A program made the position numbers and the translations under genes. DNA of 64,000 bases. It comes from Gammaproteobacteria bacterium. GTDB lineage: Bacteria; Pseudomonadota; Gammaproteobacteria; Pseudomonadales; Azotimanducaceae. The stretch lies in NCBI GenBank assembly GCA_026707945.1, contig JAPOVV010000105.1:124001-188000 (forward strand). The letters are read 5' to 3'. Positions 43,874 to 56,711 of the stretch are shown in pieces; the stretch's first letter is position 1, and each line of letters begins with the position of its first letter. The notes under the pieces are model-generated. The model was not told the origin of the DNA. It saw nothing but the letters and a program-made list of their open reading frames with translations, and ran no database searches.

Positions 43874-44368
43874 TCATCGAAGCGTCAATCGACTGTCAAC
43901 GATTCCTTCATCAGTTTTTTCGAGTCGAACGTCGACTAACCGTAATCCGTGGTCCGTTTCCAGCGAGATCAGCCATCGAATGACAGATAGGTATTTCTGA
44001 CCAGATAGCTCTACATTGAATCTATCGTCGCCAGGTTGCATGCGTTTGATCATGACATTGTGCAAATCCGCGGTACTCGAAATCACGGTCAACTTACTCT
44101 CATTACGAATGGGAGCTTCAGCGCCGCCACGTTGCCGCGCTTCTGCCTGATTCGCTACCATCCAATTCAAGCCATTCGAAGCTGCAACCTGTGCACGGAG
44201 TTTCTCGTTTCGAAAACCCATCGACGGATCGAGAACGACGTAATAGAGAAATAACGCGAGGATGAGGTACGCACCGATTCCGATCAGTATGCGTTCGCGC
44301 AGACTTGCCGATGCGAAACGCCGAATGAACGGCGCGACCGATGGAAACCACGTCAAAATTCGGTTCAT
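43874..44368 (-). CDS. gspM: Type II secretion system protein GspM
   Basis: A 164-residue bitopic inner-membrane protein: a short cytoplasmic N-terminus, a transmembrane helix at about residues 28-46 (ERILIGIGAYLILALFLYYVV), then a periplasmic ferredoxin-like domain. GspM binds GspL in the T2SS inner-membrane platform. The last gene of the cluster; its start overlaps the gspL stop (ATGA). Confidence 0.88.
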   Translation of the reverse strand: MNRILTWFPSVAPFIRRFASASLRERILIGIGAYLILALFLYYVVLDPSMGFRNEKLRAQVAASNGLNWMVANQAEARQRGGAEAPIRNESKLTVISSTADLHNVMIKRMQPGDDRFNVELSGQKYLSVIRWLISLETDHGLRLVDVRLEKTDEGIVDSRLTLR

Positions 44369-45576
44369 CTTGCGGCCAACGTGATTCTGGACCAGACTCT
44401 GTTTTTCTGCTGTTCGGCGACGTTCACTTCGACCGTCATGCCCAAATCTTCGATGCGGGATCGAATGGCTTCAAACTCTTGGAAACTATCAGCAAAAAAC
44501 GTAATCGACATTTTGTTCTGCGCTTCGTTGAAATCTAGATTTTGAATCTCCACGCCCGAGGTCGCGCCAACGACGCTTTCAAGCAAAATTAGCCATTTAC
44601 TTCGATCGTCCATTCGGGCACCCATTCGTTCCTGCATTCGAAACACGGGATTACCTGATATATCGCGAGTGTCGTACACCGCTTCATAGACATCTAACGA
44701 TTCACTACGCAGTTCATTCGTCTTGTAGTCTGCCCAGAACCCTTGGACTAGGAAGATCACGGATACAACGATGACACACGCCGCGGCAACAAGCGCAGTT
44801 TTATTAAGGATCTGATAGATCGATCCTCCGCGATCCTTGACTGCGTATGGACCCTGCTGCAGGTTCAGCAGCTCCATCGGGGATTTGACGTTCGTCAGCA
44901 GGGTTTCGACCGAGACTACTTCGATCTGTATTTGGTCGACATTGAGTTGATCGAGCGCTTGTCGTACTTCGACCTCCATAGATTCCGTACCAACACACTT
45001 GACAGCCGTGTCTTGCAAGTCATCTACCAAGATGGAAGAAAAGGCCGGCGCGAGCGCGTCTCGTGACACGACCGCAAGTTGATCCTCTGTACGTACTGTG
45101 AAGCTTGGACCAGCCTCGATCAGATAAATGTCACTTGAAGCGTCAGGCAACATACCTGGTGTCGTGACGACACTGGGGCGGATGCTCGCCCCTTCGATAA
45201 CAGATAAATATGCCTCCATACGTGCCTGATTGATGACCATGCACGGTACAGCACCATTCTTCTCTACAGCGCCAAGCGCGATGTGTACGTCATCGATCTC
45301 TTCGGTGAGGTGAGGTTCAACTGCAAATGGCGCAGCTTGCCGAATCCTAGCTTGGCTTCGACCGGGGATCTCAACTTGGATGTACAAGACCTCACGATCC
45401 GGTAGTAGAACAACGGTCTCGAATTTATCTAGCGTATTGACTTGGTCACGAGCAGCGCTTTCAATGTCGCCGAGCGAGTCAGTTCCCATCGCTGAAACTT
45501 CGGCGTCCTCGCACAACCACCATCGTGCAGGCGCTTGTGCATCCGCGTTAACGAGTTCGATATAGAGTATGTCCAT
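44365..45576 (-). CDS. gspL: Type II secretion system protein GspL
   Basis: About 403 residues. An actin-like cytoplasmic domain beginning MDILYIELV contains VLLPDREVLYIQVEIPGRSQARIRQAAPFAVEPHL, the GspL signature that docks GspE. A transmembrane helix (ALVAACVIVVSVIFLVQGFW, about residues 243-262) and a periplasmic ferredoxin-like domain follow. The open frame extends 21 codons upstream, but ATG 45576 fits the family start and leaves 11 bases to gspK. Confidence 0.9.
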   Translation of the reverse strand: MDILYIELVNADAQAPARWWLCEDAEVSAMGTDSLGDIESAARDQVNTLDKFETVVLLPDREVLYIQVEIPGRSQARIRQAAPFAVEPHLTEEIDDVHIALGAVEKNGAVPCMVINQARMEAYLSVIEGASIRPSVVTTPGMLPDASSDIYLIEAGPSFTVRTEDQLAVVSRDALAPAFSSILVDDLQDTAVKCVGTESMEVEVRQALDQLNVDQIQIEVVSVETLLTNVKSPMELLNLQQGPYAVKDRGGSIYQILNKTALVAAACVIVVSVIFLVQGFWADYKTNELRSESLDVYEAVYDTRDISGNPVFRMQERMGARMDDRSKWLILLESVVGATSGVEIQNLDFNEAQNKMSITFFADSFQEFEAIRSRIEDLGMTVEVNVAEQQKNRVWSRITLAAR

Positions 45577-45587
45577 CAAAAATCGCG

Positions 45588-46526
45588 CTAACTTGACCAC
45601 ACATGTCGAGTCCCAAAATCTCGAGCGTAGACCCGACATTCTCCAGACAATGGGTCTCGATATATCTGACTCGTCATGTCCATACGAAGGTCCGCACCTT
45701 GTAGCGTTGCCCGCACCTCGAAGAAATCGCTACGTACACTCAAATGATCGCTCACCTCAGTAAAACCATTGTTGAGATCGATAAATGCTTCAACTGATCC
45801 AAAGTTCCTAATGCCCCCACGCGGCGACATTCTTGAGCTTCCTGGTGGTAAGAGCGAATTCAAGACTTCCGGATGCGCAGTGTTCACATTAATGCTTAGT
45901 TCTGATGTAGGCAATACAGTGACCAGCTGCGTCAAATCTGAATACACATCATCCTCAATTGGCACTAACACCTGTACTTCACTCAGATGACCTGCCAAGC
46001 GATTAGGGGTACGAAACGGTGTCTCGTTAGCAAGCCAATCCAGCTCCTCGCGTCCTTGGTAGCCATCAAGTTGGAATCTTTGATCGTCTTGATCGATCCA
46101 ATCTCGCCACATCGGTGCAAGTTCCAAGCTGATCCCCAATTGATTGAGAATGTAACCAAAAGCTTTCGTAGATTCCTTGCTACTCTTACCCGAGAGTGCG
46201 TTTAAGTTCAATTTTCCGCTCAGATCGACGATTTCCATATGTACGTCACCTGATACGGTCTGTAACGGCGTAACCGATTGTGCCCATGGTTCCGCCATAT
46301 CGTCACGTAACCGACCCGCTTCGTCTAGCCAATCGACATATAACAATTCTTGCGCAAGCGCTTCGCCTGCCATCAGCGAGTACCTCGCTTGGTTGGCCGA
46401 CAACCCAATGCGAGTTTGCGCCGTAACCATCGTCTGATGAGAGTACAACTGAAACGCCAGTGCGCTGAATAGAACGACCACCAGTAAGATGCTAATCAGT
46501 GCGATACCTCGATGCGCACGCGTCAC
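45588..46526 (-). CDS. gspK: Type II secretion system minor pseudopilin GspK
   Basis: A 312-residue large pseudopilin. The N-terminal RGIALISILLVVVLFSALA lacks the Glu5 found in other pseudopilins, as is usual for GspK, which caps the pseudopilus tip with GspI and GspJ. A helical-domain segment LSGKLNLNAL and PSTELSINVNTAHPEVL-like region (LPTSELSINVNTAHPEVL) are recognisable. The start overlaps the gspJ stop by 4 bases. Confidence 0.9.
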   Translation of the reverse strand: MTRAHRGIALISILLVVVLFSALAFQLYSHQTMVTAQTRIGLSANQARYSLMAGEALAQELLYVDWLDEAGRLRDDMAEPWAQSVTPLQTVSGDVHMEIVDLSGKLNLNALSGKSSKESTKAFGYILNQLGISLELAPMWRDWIDQDDQRFQLDGYQGREELDWLANETPFRTPNRLAGHLSEVQVLVPIEDDVYSDLTQLVTVLPTSELSINVNTAHPEVLNSLLPPGSSRMSPRGGIRNFGSVEAFIDLNNGFTEVSDHLSVRSDFFEVRATLQGADLRMDMTSQIYRDPLSGECRVYARDFGTRHVWSS

Positions 46527-47158
46527 GACTCAATCTCCACACGTTCACGCAATGGACCGGTCGTAATCGGCACGAGCCAAAGGTGCGAAACGGTGCCTAA
46601 CTGCGGCAACTCGAGCGTGAGACGAACAGCAACGAGCGGACTGTAGATTTCGCCCTCGTCTATATACGTACTAGGTGGCCAAAAATAATGTTCTTCTCCA
46701 TTGCGGTCCAGCAACTCAAACTGGATCGAATTCACTGTCTGGAGGAGTAACTGGTCGATCGGCTCCGTGTCTTGAGCTCGATCCAACACCTCCCAGTAGC
46801 GCCGAATGAGCTGGTCCTCATATAAAAAGTACGCTACGCGTTGTTGGTCAGATCGCTGGTCACCAAGGAAATTTCCCCACCCTCCGCGAGTGAATTCGAT
46901 CTGATCCGAGTCGGCAACCACACCGGGTCGATAATCGCCAAATTCATCGCGAATTTGACGGCCATTGATCTGCAGCATGTCTTGTTCGATGATGTTCATT
47001 GCGCGATGCCATTCGCCCAAGACCGTGCTTCTGTGAATCACTTTTTCAGTCGTGCGAACGGATTGTGATAACAACTGCACCGCTAACACGCCAACGATGC
47101 CAAAGATCAGAACCGTAACAACCATCTCCAACAGTGTGAATCCTCGACGTCGCATCAT
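46523..47158 (-). CDS. gspJ: Type II secretion system minor pseudopilin GspJ
   Basis: About 211 residues with prepilin leader MMRRRG/FTLLEMVVTVLIFG, cleaved by the prepilin peptidase before Phe. ERGGWGN-like segment FTRGGWGNFLG is typical of GspJ. The frame reaches a TTG at 47173, but ATG 47158 overlaps the gspI stop as ATGA, like other junctions here. Confidence 0.92.
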   Translation of the reverse strand: MMRRRGFTLLEMVVTVLIFGIVGVLAVQLLSQSVRTTEKVIHRSTVLGEWHRAMNIIEQDMLQINGRQIRDEFGDYRPGVVADSDQIEFTRGGWGNFLGDQRSDQQRVAYFLYEDQLIRRYWEVLDRAQDTEPIDQLLLQTVNSIQFELLDRNGEEHYFWPPSTYIDEGEIYSPLVAVRLTLELPQLGTVSHLWLVPITTGPLRERVEIES

Positions 47159-47559
47159 CGACTTCGCACCCAAGCTGTGAGCGAACGAATTGGACCGATC
47201 GTTTCCTGATCAACGATACGGTAGACCTCCCAACGTATGTGACGCACACCCGCTGCATCAGATGGAAGAACCGTTGCAGATACCTCGAGGTCATATCCTG
47301 CAATGTATATGCGTTGAGGACCTAGTGAAGCATTGGCGAATGTATCAAGTCCCGCGAATTCCACTTCTTGCGCAAGTCGATAGTACGAGACCTGATTAGC
47401 AAGAGCCCATTGTGCAACCGTCTGTTCCTCAAGTCGTTGCTGGGCTTGGAGCGCTTCGGAGTTACTGAAGAACACCGCCGCTGACGCAACTGCGAGAATC
47501 GCAATCGCCACCATCATTTCGAGCAAAGTGAAGCCGCTCGAACGACTTTTAACGTTCAC
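47155..47559 (-). CDS. gspI: Type II secretion system minor pseudopilin GspI
   Basis: About 134 residues with leader KSRSSG/FTLLEMMVAIAILAVASAAVF, then a short globular domain. GspI nucleates the tip complex with GspJ and GspK. GTG 47559 gives a short prepilin leader and an 11-base overlap with gspH. A TTG at 47604 would give an unusually long leader, so the start is a choice rather than certain. Confidence 0.88.
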   Translation of the reverse strand: MNVKSRSSGFTLLEMMVAIAILAVASAAVFFSNSEALQAQQRLEEQTVAQWALANQVSYYRLAQEVEFAGLDTFANASLGPQRIYIAGYDLEVSATVLPSDAAGVRHIRWEVYRIVDQETIGPIRSLTAWVRSR

Positions 47560-48109
47560 TTTCAATCTCTGTAGGGAGCGGTCGATAAGGGGAGTCAGTG
47601 ACAACAGCTCGCTGGATGCCGTCGCTGATCACGAACCGTTCAATTCGCGTCACTTCGTGCGTCATCGTGATTTCAAATGGGCTCGTTTGACCACTCGGAA
47701 AGATCATAAAGTCGGCTTGAATACCGTCTGCAGACGACGGGTTTCGATTCTGCGACTTGCCTATCGAACGACCTCGCATCCAGTAGTCGGGTCCGATGTT
47801 CCTGTATTGGAAAGGTGATTCTTCGACAACATACCAACTTCCGTCGTCTGATAACCTGAGAAACTCGTACGACGAATTGTGGATTTTTACGCCCCAAATC
47901 TCGTTGGTGAGCGTGGACTGCTGTCGGGCTAGTTCTACGCTGAGCATGAATCTCTCTGCATGCGATTGCAGCATACGTGTTTCCGTGCCGCTGGTGTAAG
48001 TAAGTAAGACGGTAGCCGCCAGTACACCGATGATGATTAATACGGTGAGTAGCTCAAGTAATGAGAAACCCGCTTGCTTCCGGATTTGAAATCGCCATCG
48101 TTGACGCAT
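47549..48109 (-). CDS. gspH: Type II secretion system minor pseudopilin GspH
   Basis: A 186-residue pseudopilin with leader KQAG/FSLLELLTVLIIIGVLAATVLL and a beta-rich C-terminal domain. LARQQSTLTNEIWGVKIH is the GspH-type segment. It links the main GspG shaft to the tip. It sits 26 bases after gspG. Confidence 0.9.
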   Translation of the reverse strand: MRQRWRFQIRKQAGFSLLELLTVLIIIGVLAATVLLTYTSGTETRMLQSHAERFMLSVELARQQSTLTNEIWGVKIHNSSYEFLRLSDDGSWYVVEESPFQYRNIGPDYWMRGRSIGKSQNRNPSSADGIQADFMIFPSGQTSPFEITMTHEVTRIERFVISDGIQRAVVTDSPYRPLPTEIESER

Positions 48110-48135
48110 AGCGGTATCGACTGTGTTTTCAGCTC

Positions 48136-48570
48136 TTACAGGTCTGAGAACTTAATGTCCGTTGCAATTCCATCGCCACCTTCTTCGCCATCAGCACCTA
48201 ACGACACAATCTCGAATACAAAACCCTCATTTGTGTATACGTATGTATTTCCCCATGGGTCGACCGGAAGCTTGCGCATGTAAGGTTCTGGACCCCAATT
48301 ACGCGCCTCAGGCGTACCACTCGGTGCGTTCACCAGTGCTTCCAGCCCTTGATTAGTAGAAGGGTAGAAACTGTTATCCAAGCGATAGGTATCAAGGGCC
48401 GCAGCTAGCGTACGAATGTCAGCCTTCGCCGCCGTGATTCGTGCCTTATCCGCTTGTGGTAATACGTTCTGTACGACGATTACGGCTAACACGCCGATGA
48501 TGATCACCACCACCATGATCTCAAGCAGAGTGAAACCACGTTGACGCGCCCGGCCGAGTTTTTGAATCAT
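48136..48570 (-). CDS. gspG: Type II secretion system major pseudopilin GspG
   Basis: A 144-residue major pseudopilin with leader ARQRG/FTLLEIMVVVIIIGVLAVIV. The C-terminus has YPSTNQGLEALV and WGNTYVYTNEG with an SLGADGEEGGDG calcium-binding loop, all diagnostic of GspG. It polymerises into the pseudopilus that pushes substrates through the outer-membrane secretin. Confidence 0.97.
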   Translation of the reverse strand: MIQKLGRARQRGFTLLEIMVVVIIIGVLAVIVVQNVLPQADKARITAAKADIRTLAAALDTYRLDNSFYPSTNQGLEALVNAPSGTPEARNWGPEPYMRKLPVDPWGNTYVYTNEGFVFEIVSLGADGEEGGDGIATDIKFSDL

Positions 48571-48574
48571 TTCG

Positions 48575-49786
48575 TTAAAGTACCAATGCGTTCATGTTGA
48601 GGATCGGCAGTAGCATCGCCAGCATGATGAGTAACACCACACCTGCCATGATGAGCAGCATTAATGGACGAAAAAGCTGCACGAGCGTTTCCACTCGACG
48701 TTCGAGTTCCCGCTGCTGAAAGTCCGCTGCTTTTGCCATCAGCTCATCTAACGTCCCACTGGATTCGCCACTTGCGATCATGTGTAAGAAAATCGGTGGA
48801 AAGTTGCCTGTCGCTTCAAGCGCATTGCGAAGCGATGACCCTTCACTAACTTTAGCGACGGCTTCAATCAATCTTGAGTTTATCCAGACGTTCGCGACGA
48901 CCTCGGATGCGATACGCATCGCCTCAACTAAAGGTACGCCGCTCGTTCCCAAGATCGCGAGCGTACTCGCATAGCGAGATGCACTGGATGAACGAACTAA
49001 CCATCGAAGAACCGGTACAACTAACTTAAAGCGATCCCAGCCCAACCTAAACCCATTTTGTCGCAGACCCAGATTGAAGAGCACGAATAGCGTAATTACG
49101 CCAATCAACATCATCCAACCGTATCCGCGCAACACGTCGCTCGTGGCAATGAGTGCACTCGTAATCGCGGGGAGCGTCGCACCAGACGTGTCGAATACTT
49201 CAACGATGTCAGGGATCACGTATGTCATCACCAACACCACGATGGCGATGGCGCAAACAAGCAATATCACTGGATAGTAGAGCGCCATCTCCACGTTCCG
49301 ACGTGTTTCGTAGGAACGTTCGAGGTAGTCGGCGAGATTTTCAAGCACTGTGTCCAGGTAACCTGACTGCTCCCCAGCAGCGACGGTCGCACGAAACATG
49401 GGGGTAAATGTTTGCGGAAACTCACCCAGCGCAGCACTGAGTGATTGACCTTGCATGACATTGCCACGGACAGTCATAAGAACTGAGGTCGCTTTCCGAC
49501 TGCTCGATTGCTGAGCCACTGCTTGAATGGCCTCCTCAATCGCTAATCCAGCGCCTACCATAGTCGCGATCTGGCGTGTAATCAGCGCCAGTTCCATCGG
49601 TGGGATACGTCGCCACCACTGAAACCAAGTACCAGCTTGGACGTTTGCACGGGTGACCGTGACCTCAACCGGAGTTAAGCCGCGTTCGCGAAGTAATTGA
49701 CGCACGTGGCGACTACTGTCGCCTTCAAGGATCCCTTTTCTTGAGCTGCCGTTTTCGTGGAGCGCGACATACTCGAATGCAGTCAC
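48575..49786 (-). CDS. gspF: Type II secretion system inner-membrane protein GspF
   Basis: A 403-residue platform protein with two cytoplasmic helical-bundle repeats (PMELALITRQIATMVGAGL; ASRYASTLAILGTSGVPLVEA) and three transmembrane helices at about 170, 220 and 375. It couples the GspE ATPase to pseudopilus growth. It lies 2 bases after gspE and 4 before gspG. Confidence 0.95.
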   Translation of the reverse strand: MTAFEYVALHENGSSRKGILEGDSSRHVRQLLRERGLTPVEVTVTRANVQAGTWFQWWRRIPPMELALITRQIATMVGAGLAIEEAIQAVAQQSSSRKATSVLMTVRGNVMQGQSLSAALGEFPQTFTPMFRATVAAGEQSGYLDTVLENLADYLERSYETRRNVEMALYYPVILLVCAIAIVVLVMTYVIPDIVEVFDTSGATLPAITSALIATSDVLRGYGWMMLIGVITLFVLFNLGLRQNGFRLGWDRFKLVVPVLRWLVRSSSASRYASTLAILGTSGVPLVEAMRIASEVVANVWINSRLIEAVAKVSEGSSLRNALEATGNFPPIFLHMIASGESSGTLDELMAKAADFQQRELERRVETLVQLFRPLMLLIMAGVVLLIMLAMLLPILNMNALVL

Positions 49787-49788
49787 GA

Positions 49789-51339
49789 TCAGTCTTCCAG
49801 CGTGACGCGGAGTACTTCCTGAACTGTAGTGATGCCAGCCAACACTTTGCGACGACCGTCATCGCGAATCGTGCCGGCTTTGCTAAGCACGGCTTGTCGG
49901 AGAAGCTGCTCGGAGGCGCTCTCGTGGATGGTCTCACGGAGTTCATTGTCTACCGTAACGAGTTCATAAATCCCGGTACGACCTTGGAATCCCGAACCGT
50001 GGCACTCGTCGCAGCCAACAGCATGGTAAATCTGGTGATCTGAGTCGACACCGAGGAAACCCGCCTCAAATGCATCCGGCTCGGAAAGTACCCGGCATTC
50101 AGTACACAGAACACGCACTAATCGTTGGGCTAGTACGCCGATTAGACTCGATGAAAGTAGATAGGACTTCAGACCCATGTCCGCGAGACGTGTCACGGCG
50201 CCGATTGCAGTGTTGGTATGCAATGTCGACAACACCAGGTGACCGGTCAAACTAGATCGAATCGCAATCTCAGCTGTCTCGAAATCGCGGATCTCACCTA
50301 CCATCACGATATCTGGATCTTGACGAAGCATCGCCCGTAAGCCTGCCGCAAACGTCATACCTGTTTTGGTGTTGACTTGTGTCTGGCCGATCCCGTGAAG
50401 GTTGTATTCGATAGGATCTTCGACAGTAAGAACGTTGAGCACGTCAGTGTCCAACTCGGCGAGCGACGCATAAAGTGTGGTGGTTTTACCACTACCCGTC
50501 GGCCCGGTAACGAGAAAAATCCCATGCGGCGCTCGCATGAGTTCCCTTACGCCCGCTAGTGTCTCGGCGTCCATGCCGAGCGCTGGAAGGGTTAGTCGAT
50601 CAGATTGCTTGTCAAGCAAACGGAGTACAACTCGTTCGCCGCTACCCGTCGGCATGACCGAGACTCGAACGTCAAGTTCCTTACCACCAATCCTTACGGT
50701 GGTTCTGCCATCCTGAGGTACCCGTCGCTCAGCGATATCGAGTTTCGACATCACTTTGATTCGCGACACGATGAGTGGTGCGAGTGCCCGCTTTGGCGTG
50801 CCGACCTCACGGAGTACGCCGTCAATGCGGAAACGTACGCGAACGCTTGTCTCAAACGTTTCGATATGGATATCCGAAGCGTTCTCCCGGAGCGCTTCCG
50901 CGATGAGCGCATTGATCAAGCGAATAACCGGCGCATCGCCCTCCTGTTCCAGCAAATCGCTTTCATCTGGCAACGATTCCGAGAGCGTCGCCAGGTCGAT
51001 CTCTTCGCCTAGGTCCTCTACGATTTGACGCGTATCAGAATTTAGGTCTGCGTATGTATCCGATAGGAGTACGTCGAATTCGTCATCGCTGACCGCTTGA
51101 AACCTTACCGTGGCGCGCAAAAATCGCTGAACTTCAGCTACGACCGACAATTCAAGAGGCGGCTTGTGTACGACGACAGGGCTGCCGTTCTGGTAGTCAA
51201 TCAATACGCCGAATCGACGTGCGAAGCCGAACGGTAGAGGGCGCATAGCGGTAACCGACGCGCCGTTGCTGGTCTGGCTGTCAGGATTTGCCGTACTTTC
51301 CGGGTACTCGTCGATATCGCTCAAACGCAGACGATCCAA
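49789..51339 (-). CDS. gspE: Type II secretion ATPase GspE
   Basis: A 516-residue hexameric ATPase. Walker A is GPTGSGKTTTL (about residue 273), followed by an Asp box, Walker B DPDIVMVGEIRD and a His box. A C-terminal zinc-binding element of two CxxC pairs (CTECR, CDECH) is present. The N-terminal domain binding GspL is short. The frame's first start is TTG. It lies 149 bases after the protease stop on the same strand; that gap has no gene and no clear terminator. Confidence 0.95.
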   Translation of the reverse strand: MDRLRLSDIDEYPESTANPDSQTSNGASVTAMRPLPFGFARRFGVLIDYQNGSPVVVHKPPLELSVVAEVQRFLRATVRFQAVSDDEFDVLLSDTYADLNSDTRQIVEDLGEEIDLATLSESLPDESDLLEQEGDAPVIRLINALIAEALRENASDIHIETFETSVRVRFRIDGVLREVGTPKRALAPLIVSRIKVMSKLDIAERRVPQDGRTTVRIGGKELDVRVSVMPTGSGERVVLRLLDKQSDRLTLPALGMDAETLAGVRELMRAPHGIFLVTGPTGSGKTTTLYASLAELDTDVLNVLTVEDPIEYNLHGIGQTQVNTKTGMTFAAGLRAMLRQDPDIVMVGEIRDFETAEIAIRSSLTGHLVLSTLHTNTAIGAVTRLADMGLKSYLLSSSLIGVLAQRLVRVLCTECRVLSEPDAFEAGFLGVDSDHQIYHAVGCDECHGSGFQGRTGIYELVTVDNELRETIHESASEQLLRQAVLSKAGTIRDDGRRKVLAGITTVQEVLRVTLED

Positions 51340-51488: not shown

Positions 51489-54065
51489 TTAGGGGTGTGA
51501 TCCGTAATAGAACCGTAGTTTTGCAGCGTCCAAGCTACCAGTTTGTTCAAGCATGGCGTCGACGACCTTGATCCGCCACGCGCCGACGGGCGACTCCCCA
51601 TAGAACGCGCTCGAAGCCAGTGTAAGCGTATGAGAATCGGCGTTGTCCCTTGGTAAGCCGTCGTTGAAGATGGGATTCACGACGCTCTCCATTCCAGATG
51701 GAGAAATTAACGTCACGCCTAAGTGCCGTAAATTGTCGTGCTCAATCTCGAGCTGTAGATGCACCATCTCAATATTGGATTGGGCAAACGCTTCCATATC
51801 CATTGCCAAGGGCATCTCTGAATTGCGCGGCGAATCCACAGTTAATTCAACTACCGCGCCAGCACCTGTGCCGTCCGGGATTTCAATAGGTTCAAAATCG
51901 CTTGATTCAAGCCACTCTGTTTTCTTAAATTCACCTAACGAATCCGGTTCGTAGTCCTTCAAAAACGCCATCGCTCGGTCGACATCGACTGCTCCAAACC
52001 CATACCTGTTGTGATATGCATAACCCGCACCGTTGAGTTGCCATTCATGTTGAAGTGTGTAGATCTGGTCACCGATGACGACACGAAGTCGTGGCGTACT
52101 GACGTAGGCTTGACGCGCAGTATTGGCGAACACGTGTTTAACGTCGCGCCAGGTTAGGTTCGGAAACTCTTCAAGTATCAGCGCAACAACGCCGGAGACG
52201 ATGCCAGCCGCACCGGACGTGCCATTGAACGTGCTGATATAGTCACCGTTCGAGTCCTGATGGTCTGGTCGCAATCCGTGCGATCCATATAGGTGGTAGC
52301 CGCGGTCCGCGCCGATCTGATCGGTCGTCAGAAGTGCAGGTTGATTACGACCCCACCAGCCCGCTGGTGCTGAAATCCATATGTTCGAACCACTGCTTGC
52401 GTACGGAGCAGGTTTTCCGTCCGCATCTAGTGCACCTACGACCAACAGATAAGGCAACCTGTTCTTGTAGTCGATACCTGAACTGACGCATCCGATTTCC
52501 CGATGAATCGGATGCAAAATTGCATCGCATCCACGCCAACCGTTCCCAGCCGACTTCACGTAGATCGCACCTTTTCCGTCTCGCAACTCGGAGGTACTGA
52601 ACTCAAAAAGCTGATAAATATCCTCGTCGGGTTCTTGCCAACGCGTCCTACCGTAGCTCATATTGAATATGTCAACATCCGTCGAGTCTGGTTCGCTTGA
52701 ACTGGCGCCTAGGCTATCAAACTCTGACGAGTCCGTCCCTCTCAGTAGAAAGTTAAAGCCTCGCAACTTCACACCAGGCGCGACGCCTCGAATCCCGATC
52801 GCGTTGTTGGCCGTAGCACCGACTAAACCCGCCACGCTCGTGCCGTGATCCCCATAAATGTCCGGGTTGAATGGGTCCAAAGTATTAGCACCGAATACGA
52901 AATCAGTCGTTGCTTCGTCAGTAAGAAAGTTATACGACGCTCCCGGTTCGATGTTTTCCACCAGATCCGGATGGCATATCTCTAGTCCCGTATCAACCAC
53001 GGCAACTTGGATATCCCGACCAACGACACCGTTTTCGACGGTGTCGTGCATATGGAGGTCTTCGCCTGATCTTGCGCGATTATTGGAAAACGCCTTTTGT
53101 CCCGTGCTTTCTATGTACCACTGTTCGGAGAGCAACGGATCTTTACCGGTTGAAAGTCCCGTTGTCTCATGATCGCATTGCGAGCGAACTTGCTTATCGG
53201 AATTTAAGGCGAAGCCGAAACTACCGTCGTTGTTGTATGTGAACGCTTCGCCTTCGTAAGGTTCAACATAGATCTCACCGTAGTACGTGGTCGACGGTCT
53301 TAGACCATTGATAGGAATATGAACAAACTCGCCCCAAAAATAATCTCCAGATGGCGAGCTCAGATGATCAAGCTCAGGCACAATTCGTCTTGCACTGTGT
53401 ACGACGTTTTCTCCAGACGGATCATCAGCGAGTTTGAGCGTCACCGACGTTTGTTCGGATCGAACGAATCCATGGTTTACAACGATCACCGCAACCGAAA
53501 TAGTTTGATCGGTGATGCGCATATAGCTATAGGTGTAAATGTCCGTCAACTGGCGCAACTCACGGTAGTTTGGTTCGCCTTCGCTTGGTTGGATCTCATC
53601 GTCCGCAATAGTGACTTCTGCTTCCGCGGGTGACCCGATTCGCCCGTTTCCTAAGAACGACGCGATTTCGAGCTGAATCGTCTCATCACCCTCCCAGATC
53701 CAATCGCGCAATGGCACTAAGTGCGTTACTGCTTCTTCTTCCCCTCTATTCAGAACGACGCTAGTCGAGGCGATTTCGTAATCTAGATCTTTTGTTGCCG
53801 TGCCACCGAGCATAAGTTGCACGACGAGTCGATCAGAAACGGGTCTGTCCGCTGTGAGCTTGATCTCAATCGAGTCTACCTCGAATTCAGCGATCGTCGA
53901 CTTACTCACTGACAAAGCAATTGGAGTGCGCTTGTCGTCGAGGTGATCCGGTGCTTCCTGCGCATGGAGCAGTACCGACGTTCCACCATGTACGAAGGAG
54001 AAAACTAGGATGAGTTTTAGGAAAAATCGCAATTTGAGTGAGCGACCAACAGTGGACCAGATCAC
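51489..54065 (-). CDS. Secreted kexin-like S8 serine protease with Calx-beta and P domains
   Basis: An 858-residue precursor. The signal peptide (residues 10-36) is followed by a Calx-beta-like domain (about 45-158), a CARDB/Ig-like segment (about 165-290), the subtilase domain (about 310-680) and a C-terminal P/proprotein-convertase domain (about 725-858). The catalytic residues are Asp358 in VAVVDTG, His407 in GDHGTSVAG, oxyanion Asn508 in SAGNG and Ser617 in FNGTSGAAG. NLTWRDVKHVF is typical of the kexin branch. No inhibitor I9 prodomain is present in this chain. The upstream gene, 12 bases away, encodes a prodomain-like protein. The start is GTG. Confidence 0.92.
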   Translation of the reverse strand: MIWSTVGRSLKLRFFLKLILVFSFVHGGTSVLLHAQEAPDHLDDKRTPIALSVSKSTIAEFEVDSIEIKLTADRPVSDRLVVQLMLGGTATKDLDYEIASTSVVLNRGEEEAVTHLVPLRDWIWEGDETIQLEIASFLGNGRIGSPAEAEVTIADDEIQPSEGEPNYRELRQLTDIYTYSYMRITDQTISVAVIVVNHGFVRSEQTSVTLKLADDPSGENVVHSARRIVPELDHLSSPSGDYFWGEFVHIPINGLRPSTTYYGEIYVEPYEGEAFTYNNDGSFGFALNSDKQVRSQCDHETTGLSTGKDPLLSEQWYIESTGQKAFSNNRARSGEDLHMHDTVENGVVGRDIQVAVVDTGLEICHPDLVENIEPGASYNFLTDEATTDFVFGANTLDPFNPDIYGDHGTSVAGLVGATANNAIGIRGVAPGVKLRGFNFLLRGTDSSEFDSLGASSSEPDSTDVDIFNMSYGRTRWQEPDEDIYQLFEFSTSELRDGKGAIYVKSAGNGWRGCDAILHPIHREIGCVSSGIDYKNRLPYLLVVGALDADGKPAPYASSGSNIWISAPAGWWGRNQPALLTTDQIGADRGYHLYGSHGLRPDHQDSNGDYISTFNGTSGAAGIVSGVVALILEEFPNLTWRDVKHVFANTARQAYVSTPRLRVVIGDQIYTLQHEWQLNGAGYAYHNRYGFGAVDVDRAMAFLKDYEPDSLGEFKKTEWLESSDFEPIEIPDGTGAGAVVELTVDSPRNSEMPLAMDMEAFAQSNIEMVHLQLEIEHDNLRHLGVTLISPSGMESVVNPIFNDGLPRDNADSHTLTLASSAFYGESPVGAWRIKVVDAMLEQTGSLDAAKLRFYYGSHP

Positions 54066-54077
54066 GTCACGTTGCTG

Positions 54078-54665
54078 CTACATCGGTTCATATTCGAATA
54101 ACCCGGTAAGAATCCGCGCATCGTCACTTTCAAATTCGTCTCTAAGTGTGCGCAGTACCTCGACTGGATTGACGTCGATCGCGATCTTCACGATCGAGAA
54201 ACCAAGGTTGTCATAGCGTTTTACTGCCGTGACTCCCGTCAGCTCTTTAATCTGACGGAGTTTTCTCTCATCCGTGTGTTCAATCCGAATTTCCTGGCGC
54301 ATGGGTTCAAAGCGATGTCTCTTCATATCGAAGACAAACCGCTTGTGTACGGCATCTGGAGTTATGGATTGGGTAACGAGCTTGTCGCCTGACTCAGCGC
54401 TCAATACCTGACGTCCTCGTTCGTGCGACATCGAGAAGGACCAACCGCTTTTTCGAGACGTCAACGGCGGATCGGTTTGACGTACCAGTTCCACACCCGA
54501 AAACGCGACGCTATCAGCGCTTACTTCAGTGAAATGATCTGCTTCTCGGTCTCCTCCATTCGCTACTAGCGCGTTACACAGTGCAAACAGCATGACTGAG
54601 GCGACCATTCGCCTCATGAGACGACTACCGCAGGTCTTCAATTTGTCTTCTGGCATCTTTACCAT
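54078..54665 (-). CDS. Secreted subtilase-prodomain-like protein (possible trans chaperone/inhibitor)
   Basis: About 195 residues with a signal peptide (RRMVASVMLFALCNALVANGG). The C-terminal 70 residues resemble an S8 propeptide: KLRQIKELTGVTAVKRYDNL, a strand FSIVKIAI, a helix VEVLRTLRDEF, and an ending LTGLFEYEPM like the EPNY end of inhibitor I9 prodomains. It sits just upstream of a protease that lacks its own prodomain, so a role in folding or inhibiting it is inferred. The frame extends to 54788, but ATG 54665 or 54656 fits the signal peptide. Confidence 0.68.
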   Translation of the reverse strand: MVKMPEDKLKTCGSRLMRRMVASVMLFALCNALVANGGDREADHFTEVSADSVAFSGVELVRQTDPPLTSRKSGWSFSMSHERGRQVLSAESGDKLVTQSITPDAVHKRFVFDMKRHRFEPMRQEIRIEHTDERKLRQIKELTGVTAVKRYDNLGFSIVKIAIDVNPVEVLRTLRDEFESDDARILTGLFEYEPM

Positions 54666-54942
54666 GTCGTGATCAAAGAAGTGATGTGTTCTGCTCAATG
54701 TTATATCGCGTCGAAAAGGTGACGAGCGACCCGGCTGACGTCTTAAAAACGAGCTCGCTATCCAAGCTCCTATTCCACACGATTTCATCGGTGAACACGG
54801 TCAACTTCCAGATTCTTATTCGACATAAAGGGCTCTCGTCCAATCGTTTTTCGTCTATACGAAGCTCAGTCTACTTTTCAATAAGCTCTTGACGATGTAG
54901 ACTTCGATATGACCGCTCAACAATCATCTTAGTTCGAATGTC

Positions 54943-56055
54943 GTGAATGTCCTGATTGGCGATGAGCAACAGACAATTCGGGAAATTCTTATCGGATCCC
55001 TGGCTTGGCGCGAACACGAAATTCATATCCCTAAATTGTTCAACCGAAGTAAGTTCAAACGTAGGAGAACGAATTTACCTCCCCAGCTTTATCTATCGGC
55101 AGTACTTTGCTCAGTCGCTATTCCGCTCTACTCCGCCTGCCCAACCGATGCAGAGCTTCCATCGGAAGGTCAGCACGATATCGTCCAGGTAATCCGCGAT
55201 AACGGCATATCCGATATCGAGATCGCTGCGCTGAGGGAATCGAACTATCGCCGACCCGCACAACAAGAGAAAGCGTTATTAGAAATTTTGAGTGACGCTC
55301 AAGATATGACGACGAGAAAACTGGTTGCATTCGCGAAGCTCGCACCAGCGCTGGTAGCGCCACTGATAGCTGAAATCGAGGATTCTGAGAAGCAATGTAA
55401 GCTCGTTGATGATCTCATCGGATACTGGGTAGAGGCAGATTTGGCTACCTCCATCGACGTCATAAAAGATCTACACGCCACGACTCTCGACGATCTGCTT
55501 CTGCGTAGGTCGGTGAAGCTTCTCGCACGGGTACACCCCGTAGAAGCGTTTAGATTTTCACATGAATATTTCGGACGTTTCGGCTATGTGCTGGAAAGTA
55601 TCGCTTTTGAAACGATGGCAGAACAAGATCCACAACTCGCGATAGAGTTCATACCGTCGATCAGAAGGAAGTTCTACGGATATACCACATACAGTGGCGA
55701 ACTATCGATTTCTAACCCGCTCTTCAAACTAGACCCGGCGCTCGCGGTCGAATTTGGTCGGTCACTCAATACGTCTGCAAAAGAAGGGCTGTTGTCAGAA
55801 GCAGAATCGTATTTCTGGTCATTGAGTGATCACTTTCGCGATGCCGACCCAAGCGTGTTTATTGAGCTGAAGGAGCACATTCCCGCGCCTCACCCGTTAC
55901 CTCATATTTCGTACTACGTGCTGAAGCACGCCCCTGACAAGCGGCGTCTGACACTGGTTGAGTTTGAATCGCTCTACGAAGCCCTTCTACCCCATGATCG
56001 TGAGAAAGTTGACGAATTTCCGCGATCAAGGTTCATTGGATATCACGACAATTGA
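54943..56055 (+). CDS. Exported helical protein of unknown function
   Basis: Up to 370 residues, not recognised. A basic segment (KFKRRRTN) then a hydrophobic stretch (LYLSAVLCSVAIPLYSA) before Cys suggests a signal or lipoprotein-like N-terminus, so the true start may be the TTG at 55036 rather than GTG 54943. The rest is mostly helical with HEAT/ARM-like spacing (LAPALVAPLIAEIED, LLRRSVKLLARVHPVEAFRF). It is divergent from the prodomain gene, with 154 bases or more between them, and overlaps the next gene. Confidence 0.6.
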   Translation: MNVLIGDEQQTIREILIGSLAWREHEIHIPKLFNRSKFKRRRTNLPPQLYLSAVLCSVAIPLYSACPTDAELPSEGQHDIVQVIRDNGISDIEIAALRESNYRRPAQQEKALLEILSDAQDMTTRKLVAFAKLAPALVAPLIAEIEDSEKQCKLVDDLIGYWVEADLATSIDVIKDLHATTLDDLLLRRSVKLLARVHPVEAFRFSHEYFGRFGYVLESIAFETMAEQDPQLAIEFIPSIRRKFYGYTTYSGELSISNPLFKLDPALAVEFGRSLNTSAKEGLLSEAESYFWSLSDHFRDADPSVFIELKEHIPAPHPLPHISYYVLKHAPDKRRLTLVEFESLYEALLPHDREKVDEFPRSRFIGYHDN

Positions 56056-56711
56056 ACGAAGACTCACTGAACTGCTCAATCTCGGTAGTGCAAAGACCTT
56101 GCTTCTTTAGCGGAACGCAACGTAAGTGTTGTTTTTGGATACTCACGCTGCTTTTGAGCGAGATTCTCACCGTATCTTGCCTTGCTCATGTATGTGCGGG
56201 CGTATCGATCGAACGCGCTTTTGACCAAGCGGATGTCGTCATAGAAGCAAAGCTCAATCCCAAAACTCCTCGTGAGGAACTCAAAAACCCAACTGCGGGT
56301 GAAGGGGAAATGCTTTATCTCCCCACCGGACTGACGTTCGACGTCTTGAATGTATGGAAAGGCGATGAAACCGCAACGGCATTGATCTATATCTATGCAG
56401 TGTACACTGGTTTCGACGACGATCAGACCTACCTCATCTTTGCTACAAGAAACTTCGATATTCAAACGCGAGAGAGAAAGCATCAAATAGATGAAGTTCC
56501 ACCTACTAATCTTCGGTTGTTCACGAGCGGTTGCATCGGCAACAAGATTCTTCGCGAAGACCGCGCTTCCCAACTGGCTAGAGAGAAACTCGACAGAATT
56601 AGTGAAGAACACATTGGTTCCGAAGCACAGAGTGAACACGCCGTGGCATTGCAAATGCGCATTCGGGAAATCGTCAAATCGAGCAAGGACGAGATGCCCA
56701 CGCCTGAGTAG
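56052..56711 (+). CDS. Exported protein with NTR/TIMP-like domain
   Basis: A 219-residue protein with a hydrophobic signal (CCFWILTLLLSEILTVSCLA) ending at HVCAGVSIERAFDQADVVIEA. FDVLNVWKGD, YLIFA and TSGCIGN follow in the order of bacterial NTR/TIMP-like domains, in which an N-terminal Cys pairs with a later one. Eukaryotic TIMPs with this fold inhibit metalloproteases. Bacterial members are mostly uncharacterised. The start is TTG overlapping the upstream stop. Confidence 0.65.
   Translation: MNEDSLNCSISVVQRPCFFSGTQRKCCFWILTLLLSEILTVSCLAHVCAGVSIERAFDQADVVIEAKLNPKTPREELKNPTAGEGEMLYLPTGLTFDVLNVWKGDETATALIYIYAVYTGFDDDQTYLIFATRNFDIQTRERKHQIDEVPPTNLRLFTSGCIGNKILREDRASQLAREKLDRISEEHIGSEAQSEHAVALQMRIREIVKSSKDEMPTPE

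Follow-up and report, generated by a model that had tools for sequence, protein, structure and literature searches.

A separately encoded propeptide as the probable partner of a kexin-like protease in a gammaproteobacterial genome

How does a subtilase fold when its own chain carries no propeptide? The question is raised by a gene pair on the minus strand of a 64,000-nucleotide stretch, referred to as the window herein, of a gammaproteobacterial genome of the family Azotimanducaceae (assembly GCA_026707945.1, contig JAPOVV010000105.1, positions 124,001 to 188,000), in which the gene for a putatively exported 195-residue protein precedes that for an 858-residue kexin-like S8 protease. A sequence-only reading had proposed that the two genes encode a protease and its propeptide. 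Our analysis supports this proposal: the gene anatomy, the modelled fold of the lone small protein, prodomain matches among its relatives, natural fusions, a C-terminal tail that falls at the fused-chain junction, and partner-specific matching of the two trees make it highly probable that the small protein serves the neighboring protease as a propeptide synthesized on its own, and that it would fold and inhibit its own protease.

The nearest precedent is ASP of Aeromonas sobria. According to the available part of PMC5638518, ASP requires a chaperone, ORF2, whose gene follows directly downstream; ORF2 ends in Gln-Pro-Lys, and this end is placed at the ASP catalytic site with the Lys near catalytic residue 336. 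The same source reports asp-orf2 operons in four more genera. In its accessible sections, a 2022 survey of subtilases (PMC9549277) names ASP as the exception to the rule of folding chaperoned by an N-terminal propeptide, and in another place counts it among the two subtilases that have none.

The protease and its small partner

The window protease belongs with the ASP-type kexin-like S8 proteases by its intact triad and its P-domain. Pfam matched the S8 domain at E 1.6e-41 and the P-domain at E 1.6e-13, and Asp358, His407, Asn508, and Ser617 were invariant in an alignment of 26 sequences including that of the window. Searched alone, the window protein found ASP (3HJR) as its nearest solved relative at E 1.2e-66, followed by kexin at 4.2e-20, and a profile of the 26 sequences likewise placed ASP first (8.7e-143 vs 4e-53 for furin). 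ASP (3HJR/3WQB) resembles the window protease in having no covalent propeptide and a small partner (ORF2, PF18492) encoded next door. It differs in that the window protease carries ∼300 residues ahead of the ASP-aligning part and in that the small gene lies upstream, a difference in gene order that had been recognized from the sequence; only 5 of the 86 homologous proteases surveyed below have the small gene directly downstream. In agreement with the earlier statement that the protease has no I9-type propeptide, Pfam gave neither an I9 nor an NPro match across its 858 residues at E ≤ 10. The genome, 96% complete, likewise yielded no I9 propeptide in a search that was positive in 2/14 control genomes.

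The small gene has 195 codons and a TAG stop, followed by 12 bases and then the GTG start of the protease; open reading frames (ORFs) and translations bear out the placement and spacing of the two genes as first read. A possible earlier start at 54788 would give a product of 236 residues. Because third codon positions of the small gene showed about twice as many differences as first and second positions in 4/4 comparisons, it is a real gene. It changes faster than the protease, with identities of 49-60% against 69-72%. The order small gene, protease, gspE is common to the window and to 4/4 relatives of the window orthologue, with one extra gene inside that order in locus L103; this conservation, together with the codon-position pattern, argues that the pairing is not a matter of chance.

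AlphaFold2 modelled the small protein alone from 54 rows with a predicted local distance difference test score (pLDDT) of 87. The model contains a hydrophobic N-terminal helix (residues 13-35), a beta-rich part, a beta-alpha-beta-beta-alpha-beta domain (residues 118-187), and a loose tail reading EYEPM. Blocks within the C-terminal domain reach pLDDT 92-97 up to residue 190, and the tail falls to ∼60. Known subtilase prodomains, I9 among them, have ferredoxin-like topology and a C-terminal tail, and the predicted domain shows the same arrangement. Folding the 195-residue protein alone had been suggested as a check on the claim that its C-terminal 70 residues are propeptide-like, and the model favors that claim. 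A second suggested check was a profile search against Inhibitor_I9 (PF05922). Pfam gave no I9 match in the window small protein, and the families listed for sets of 23 and 54 members of its family did not include I9. The likeness to the subtilisin propeptide is one of predicted topology and tail, set against the lack of any I9 match in the small protein or the genome.

Relatives of the small protein nevertheless match known families. The Fervidolysin N-terminal prodomain (PF22148) was found at E ≤ 0.01 in 24/54 small-family members and above the Pfam cut-off in five of the ten members given (L050, L046, L144, L135, and the fused L152), and its cut-off was also passed by the downstream-encoded L180, L181, and L182. 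The matches above this curated cut-off cover the C-terminal domain, which in fused chains occupies the same N-terminal place as in Fervidolysin-type proteases; the window protein differs in being a separate polypeptide and in lying below detection. As for ORF2, the window small protein gave no direct PF18492 match at E ≤ 10, while L101, L102, and L182, which are encoded downstream as in Aeromonas, passed the cut-off of that family. In the ORF set, a small-family profile from which L101 had been left out still recovered it at E 1.4e-5, which indicates homology to ORF2 via intermediates; the small-family profile missed L102. Since L182 passes both the ORF2 and the prodomain cut-offs, one family bridges ORF2 and ordinary subtilase prodomains. 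The suggestion that propeptide features set the small protein apart from ORF2 has to be dropped on the same grounds, and also because the end of ORF2 itself lies at the ASP active site, as the available part of PMC5638518 states. When run against PDB sequences, the small-family profile gave a single match, at E 0.42, which we rejected.

Fused, adjacent, and unlinked forms

The suggested survey of gene order covered 86 proteases: 81 frames in 80 loci, the window, two further loci of its own genome, and two order-level relatives. The 80 loci are the best of 363 confirmed relatives, so the counts apply to its closer members. The small domain was encoded upstream of the protease in 45 of the 86 and downstream in five; in three more it lay on the opposite strand just past the 3′ end of the protease (convergent), and in 15 it was not adjacent. 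In the remaining state, represented by 14 of the 86, it was covalently joined N-terminal to the S8 domain. Three proteases cut by contig edges were left out of these state counts and one 2816-residue chain was set aside; the upstream count includes L128, whose small gene is partial, at the end of a contig, and whose protease frame is broken. In the fused L154, ∼190 residues separate the prodomain from the S8 domain.

Split and fused forms also occur together in one genome. The genome of the window has three such proteases, namely the window pair, a second split pair (contig C47), and a fused one (C114), as well as one further S8 protein. Direct BLAST of the fused chain (G000:C114) against the window small protein gave E 9e-9 in the ORF set. 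Small-gene matches were found in 18/18 genomes of the genus, this one included, and in two more of the family among 58 genomes searched. Many of the source genomes are presumably of sponge origin, judging by record and isolate names. One further match, on G006:C30 and with two stops, was spurious: the profile search had nothing to match it at E ≤ 1, and the real G006 copy adjoins its protease. A scan of genome contigs with the small protein alone gave 43 pattern matches, none of which was confirmed.

Where the protease lacks an adjacent small gene, the partner is usually found elsewhere. In 11/11 genus genomes with such a protease there was one small-gene match on another contig, and 11 of the 15 non-adjacent proteases belong to genomes with a small gene on another contig. 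Several unlinked proteases adjoin FtsE/FtsX-like genes (this and the gene names in the next paragraph were assigned by reading), at a place where other members of the genus carry a split pair. On the protease tree the fused label changes at least four times, two of these changes being forced by starred branches; the trees came from quick searches and have long branches, and starred branches deserve less trust. With at least four such changes, cis-trans switching probably happened more than once, and the tree leaves both directions possible.

The unlinked small genes (L042, L045-L049, and L024-L028) sit in a few recurring places, 9/11 of them beside nfuA- or pyruvate-carboxylase-like genes, and 8/11 of their products have a C-terminal His, which none of the 52 listed proteins from adjacent genes shows. 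The proteases of L119, L137, and L178 are second copies near an aquaporin-like gene, with no adjacent small gene; each of their genomes has one small-gene match, on another contig. The 2816-residue frame (L131:3830-12280) matches the protease family in its C-terminal part and lies directly ahead of another pair of small protein and protease.

The C-terminal tail and partner matching

In the alignment, the 63 separate small proteins share a single end column. Aligned ends do not explain this, because, counted from the near-invariant Pro167 column, the end comes 28 residues later with no gap in 63/63, and the matching column is equally spaced in 14/14 fused chains. The penultimate residue of the separate proteins is Pro in 42/63 and Trp in 18/63. 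At that place the fused chains read Pro-Met or Pro-Gln (-RPM / -VPQ) in 9/14 and Pro-Ala in 1/14, after which a linker follows. The window tail, described at first as an EPNY-like propeptide end, reads EYEPM; it fits the Pro-X pattern and stops at the column of the fused-chain junction. It shares a penultimate Pro with ORF2 (Gln-Pro-Lys in the available part of PMC5638518) and differs in ending with Met instead of Lys. The coincidence of tail and junction suggests that the separate protein ends at the point of cleavage expected for a covalent propeptide, and we consider this match the strongest pointer to the mechanism.

A tail that points to active-site binding would also suit a protein acting mainly as a dedicated inhibitor, for self-protection until export, and not needed for folding. 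There is a parallel in the accessible part of PMC6993865, which describes a propeptide-like domain as a protein of its own in Plasmodium, although it is reported there as an inhibitor, and of a different subtilase, SUB1. We judge this purely inhibitory role unlikely for the window protein, since fusion at the N-terminus is how folding propeptides are arranged, neither the protease nor the genome showed an I9 propeptide, and the nearest characterized pair requires its chaperone for maturation (PMC5638518 and PMC2613230, in the parts available).

Further support for a propeptide dedicated to its own protease came from comparing the two trees. Across 77 pairs the mirror-tree correlation was r 0.812, with a maximum of 0.26 in 1000 random permutations (L102 has no row in this comparison and the 2816-residue chain was left out of the tree). 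Because shared ancestry alone raises r, we used swaps of partners within genomes as a control. In the 15 genomes with at least two pairs (37 rows; genome membership was assigned by hand from accession prefixes), swaps gave a mean of 0.63 and a maximum of 0.76, and 0/2000 reached 0.812. Without the fused rows (12 genomes, 25 rows) r was 0.865, which 0/2000 swaps reached. At the level of single residues, the protease column of Lys534 is acidic in 23/23 proteases whose partner ends in Arg or Lys and in 0/41 others, and it is the only perfect column among 6324 column-class tests. From its place after the oxyanion residue Asn508, position 534 may lie near S1.

Several results weigh against this reading. 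Four of the 15 non-adjacent proteases (L119, L137, L178, and L138) have no assigned partner, and 4/14 fused chains have no Pro-X junction. Without fused rows, the best swap (0.853) came close to the observed 0.865. The pattern linking tail and column 534 amounts to three tree changes, and independent pairs cannot reach significance. Moreover, Aeromonas ASP has Ser at this column although ORF2 ends in Lys; we rejected the acidic column as a general rule on this account and keep it as a pattern of the present set only. When the pair was modelled as a single chain of 1058 residues (small gene and protease, joined by reading the TAG as Gln), the result was unusable, with the catalytic domain unfolded at pLDDT ∼25 and only nine rows covering the protease. 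A Foldseek search with the small-protein model had no match at E ≤ 0.001, and the best 50 of 863 matches held no propeptide or ORF2; they consisted of HMA domains of ferredoxin-like fold and large proteins that superposed poorly, a result that fits the general ferredoxin-like class of the model, not identity. Lastly, the window small protein matched no Pfam family at E ≤ 10, only its relatives doing so. Taken alone, this lack of a family would also suit two neighboring genes with unrelated functions, an account that we find extremely improbable as it is contradicted by the fusions, the repeated adjacency, and the partner-specific tree matching.

Proposed mechanism and genomic surroundings

We propose that both proteins are exported through their own signal sequences. 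In the periplasm, the ferredoxin-like domain of the small protein would dock on the folding catalytic domain while the EYEPM tail, with Met as P1, would occupy the active site. The small protein may thereby aid folding and block autolysis until it is degraded or released, and the mature protease would then be secreted, this copy probably via the type II system encoded next to it. What we infer from the comparisons above comprises the docking, the chaperone and inhibitor roles, cleavage of fused relatives at the junction, the order of events, and the secretion route.

The gene order ahead of gspE also invites another role, that of an escort for the type II secretion system in place of a propeptide. 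The pair does lie ahead of gspE in 5/5 window-type loci, so that its position before gspE-M, as originally described, stands. Its dedication to type II secretion, inferred from that gene order alone, is less secure: by eye, no gsp genes adjoin eight other split pairs whose neighbors were viewed, though gspE is present in 17/18 genus genomes. An escort role, which would in addition leave the fusions and the junction unexplained, is very unlikely.

Taken together, a system like ASP/ORF2 with a trans-acting propeptide as the partner is the best explanation of the locus. The novelty lies in a natural series, running from fused to unlinked forms of a single family and including a genome that has both split and fused ones; it differs from what is described for ORF2 in that the relatives include fused and unlinked forms. 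Among the titles and abstract openings listed, mostly outside the subscription literature, we found ASP/ORF2 and the SUB1 inhibitor and no earlier description of such a series. The series points to detached propeptides as the nature of the external chaperones known for such proteases. We further think it likely that detachable propeptides of one family have moved repeatedly among fused, adjacent (upstream, downstream, or convergent), and unlinked states while keeping a private partner, that this partnership depends partly on the final propeptide residue and on a single protease residue that would lie near S1, and that the Aeromonas chaperone is one member of a general cis-trans series, not an exception. 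Because natural trans pairs number in the dozens among these loci, and the same domain also occurs in covalent form, native sequences can be used to test whether external chaperones are detached propeptides and what an untethered propeptide needs; likewise, the tail residue and the Lys534 column make a simple specificity rule open to testing.

Table 1. Features of the gene pair and the adjoining type II secretion genes (window positions)
Feature	Position	Strand	Basis
Small gene; exported 195-residue protein, probable trans-acting propeptide (external chaperone)	54078..54665	-	ORF, translation, model; function from sequence comparison
Predicted N-terminal export-signal region, small protein residues ∼1-37	54555..54665	-	Sequence; helix 13-35 in model
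N-terminal beta-rich part, residues 45-113	54327..54533	-	Model
C-terminal ferredoxin-like prodomain, residues 118-187, beta-alpha-beta-beta-alpha-beta	54105..54314	-	Model; Fervidolysin_NPro-like matches in relatives
Flexible C-terminal tail ending E-Y-E-P-M, putative active-site ligand with Met as P1	54081..54104	-	pLDDT ∼60; same column as fused-chain junction
ASP-type (kexin-like) S8 serine protease, 858 residues	51489..54065	-	GTG start, TAA stop; covalent propeptide not found
Calx-beta-like domain, protease residues 71-156	53598..53855	-	Pfam, below cut-off
Peptidase S8 catalytic domain, residues 349-661; Asp358, His407, Asn508, Ser617	52083..53021	-	Pfam and alignment
Lys534 column	52464..52466	-	Acidic in 23/23 with Arg/Lys-ending partner, 0/41 others
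P-domain, protease residues 766-852	51510..51770	-	Pfam
gspE, first gene of type II secretion operon, ∼150 bases downstream of protease	49789..51339	-	Pfam
gspF-gspM	43874..49786	-	Pfam (GspI below its cut-off, GspH at cut-off)

Ahead of the catalytic domain, the protease had been described as carrying Calx-beta and Ig-like domains. The former was found, though with E 4e-4 and 20.8 bits it stays below the Pfam cut-off of 27; for the latter, the Pfam search of the protease gave no match to any Ig-like family. Two beta-rich stretches in this region were modelled with good confidence within an otherwise unusable model.

In the window (54066-54080) and in L103, L104, and L105, the small gene and the protease share one frame, with the TAG and four codons between them; in L105, eight codons lead from the TAG to the listed protease start. 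In L106 the small gene likewise stops at TAG, but out of frame with its protease. Promoter- and terminator-like sites were no more numerous than in shuffled sequence. Upstream, the pair adjoins two divergent predicted genes on the plus strand, 54943-56055 and 56052-56711, neither with a Pfam or NCBIfam match above cut-off. By eye, no counterparts of these genes were seen at that place in L103, L105, and L106; L104 has no upstream sequence and so offers no view of them. Absent from the five proteases of the window clade, a lipobox-like N-terminus was picked up by a simple pattern, applied to the proteases of L103-L182, the window, L031, and L032, in 23 of the 45 proteases with an upstream partner.

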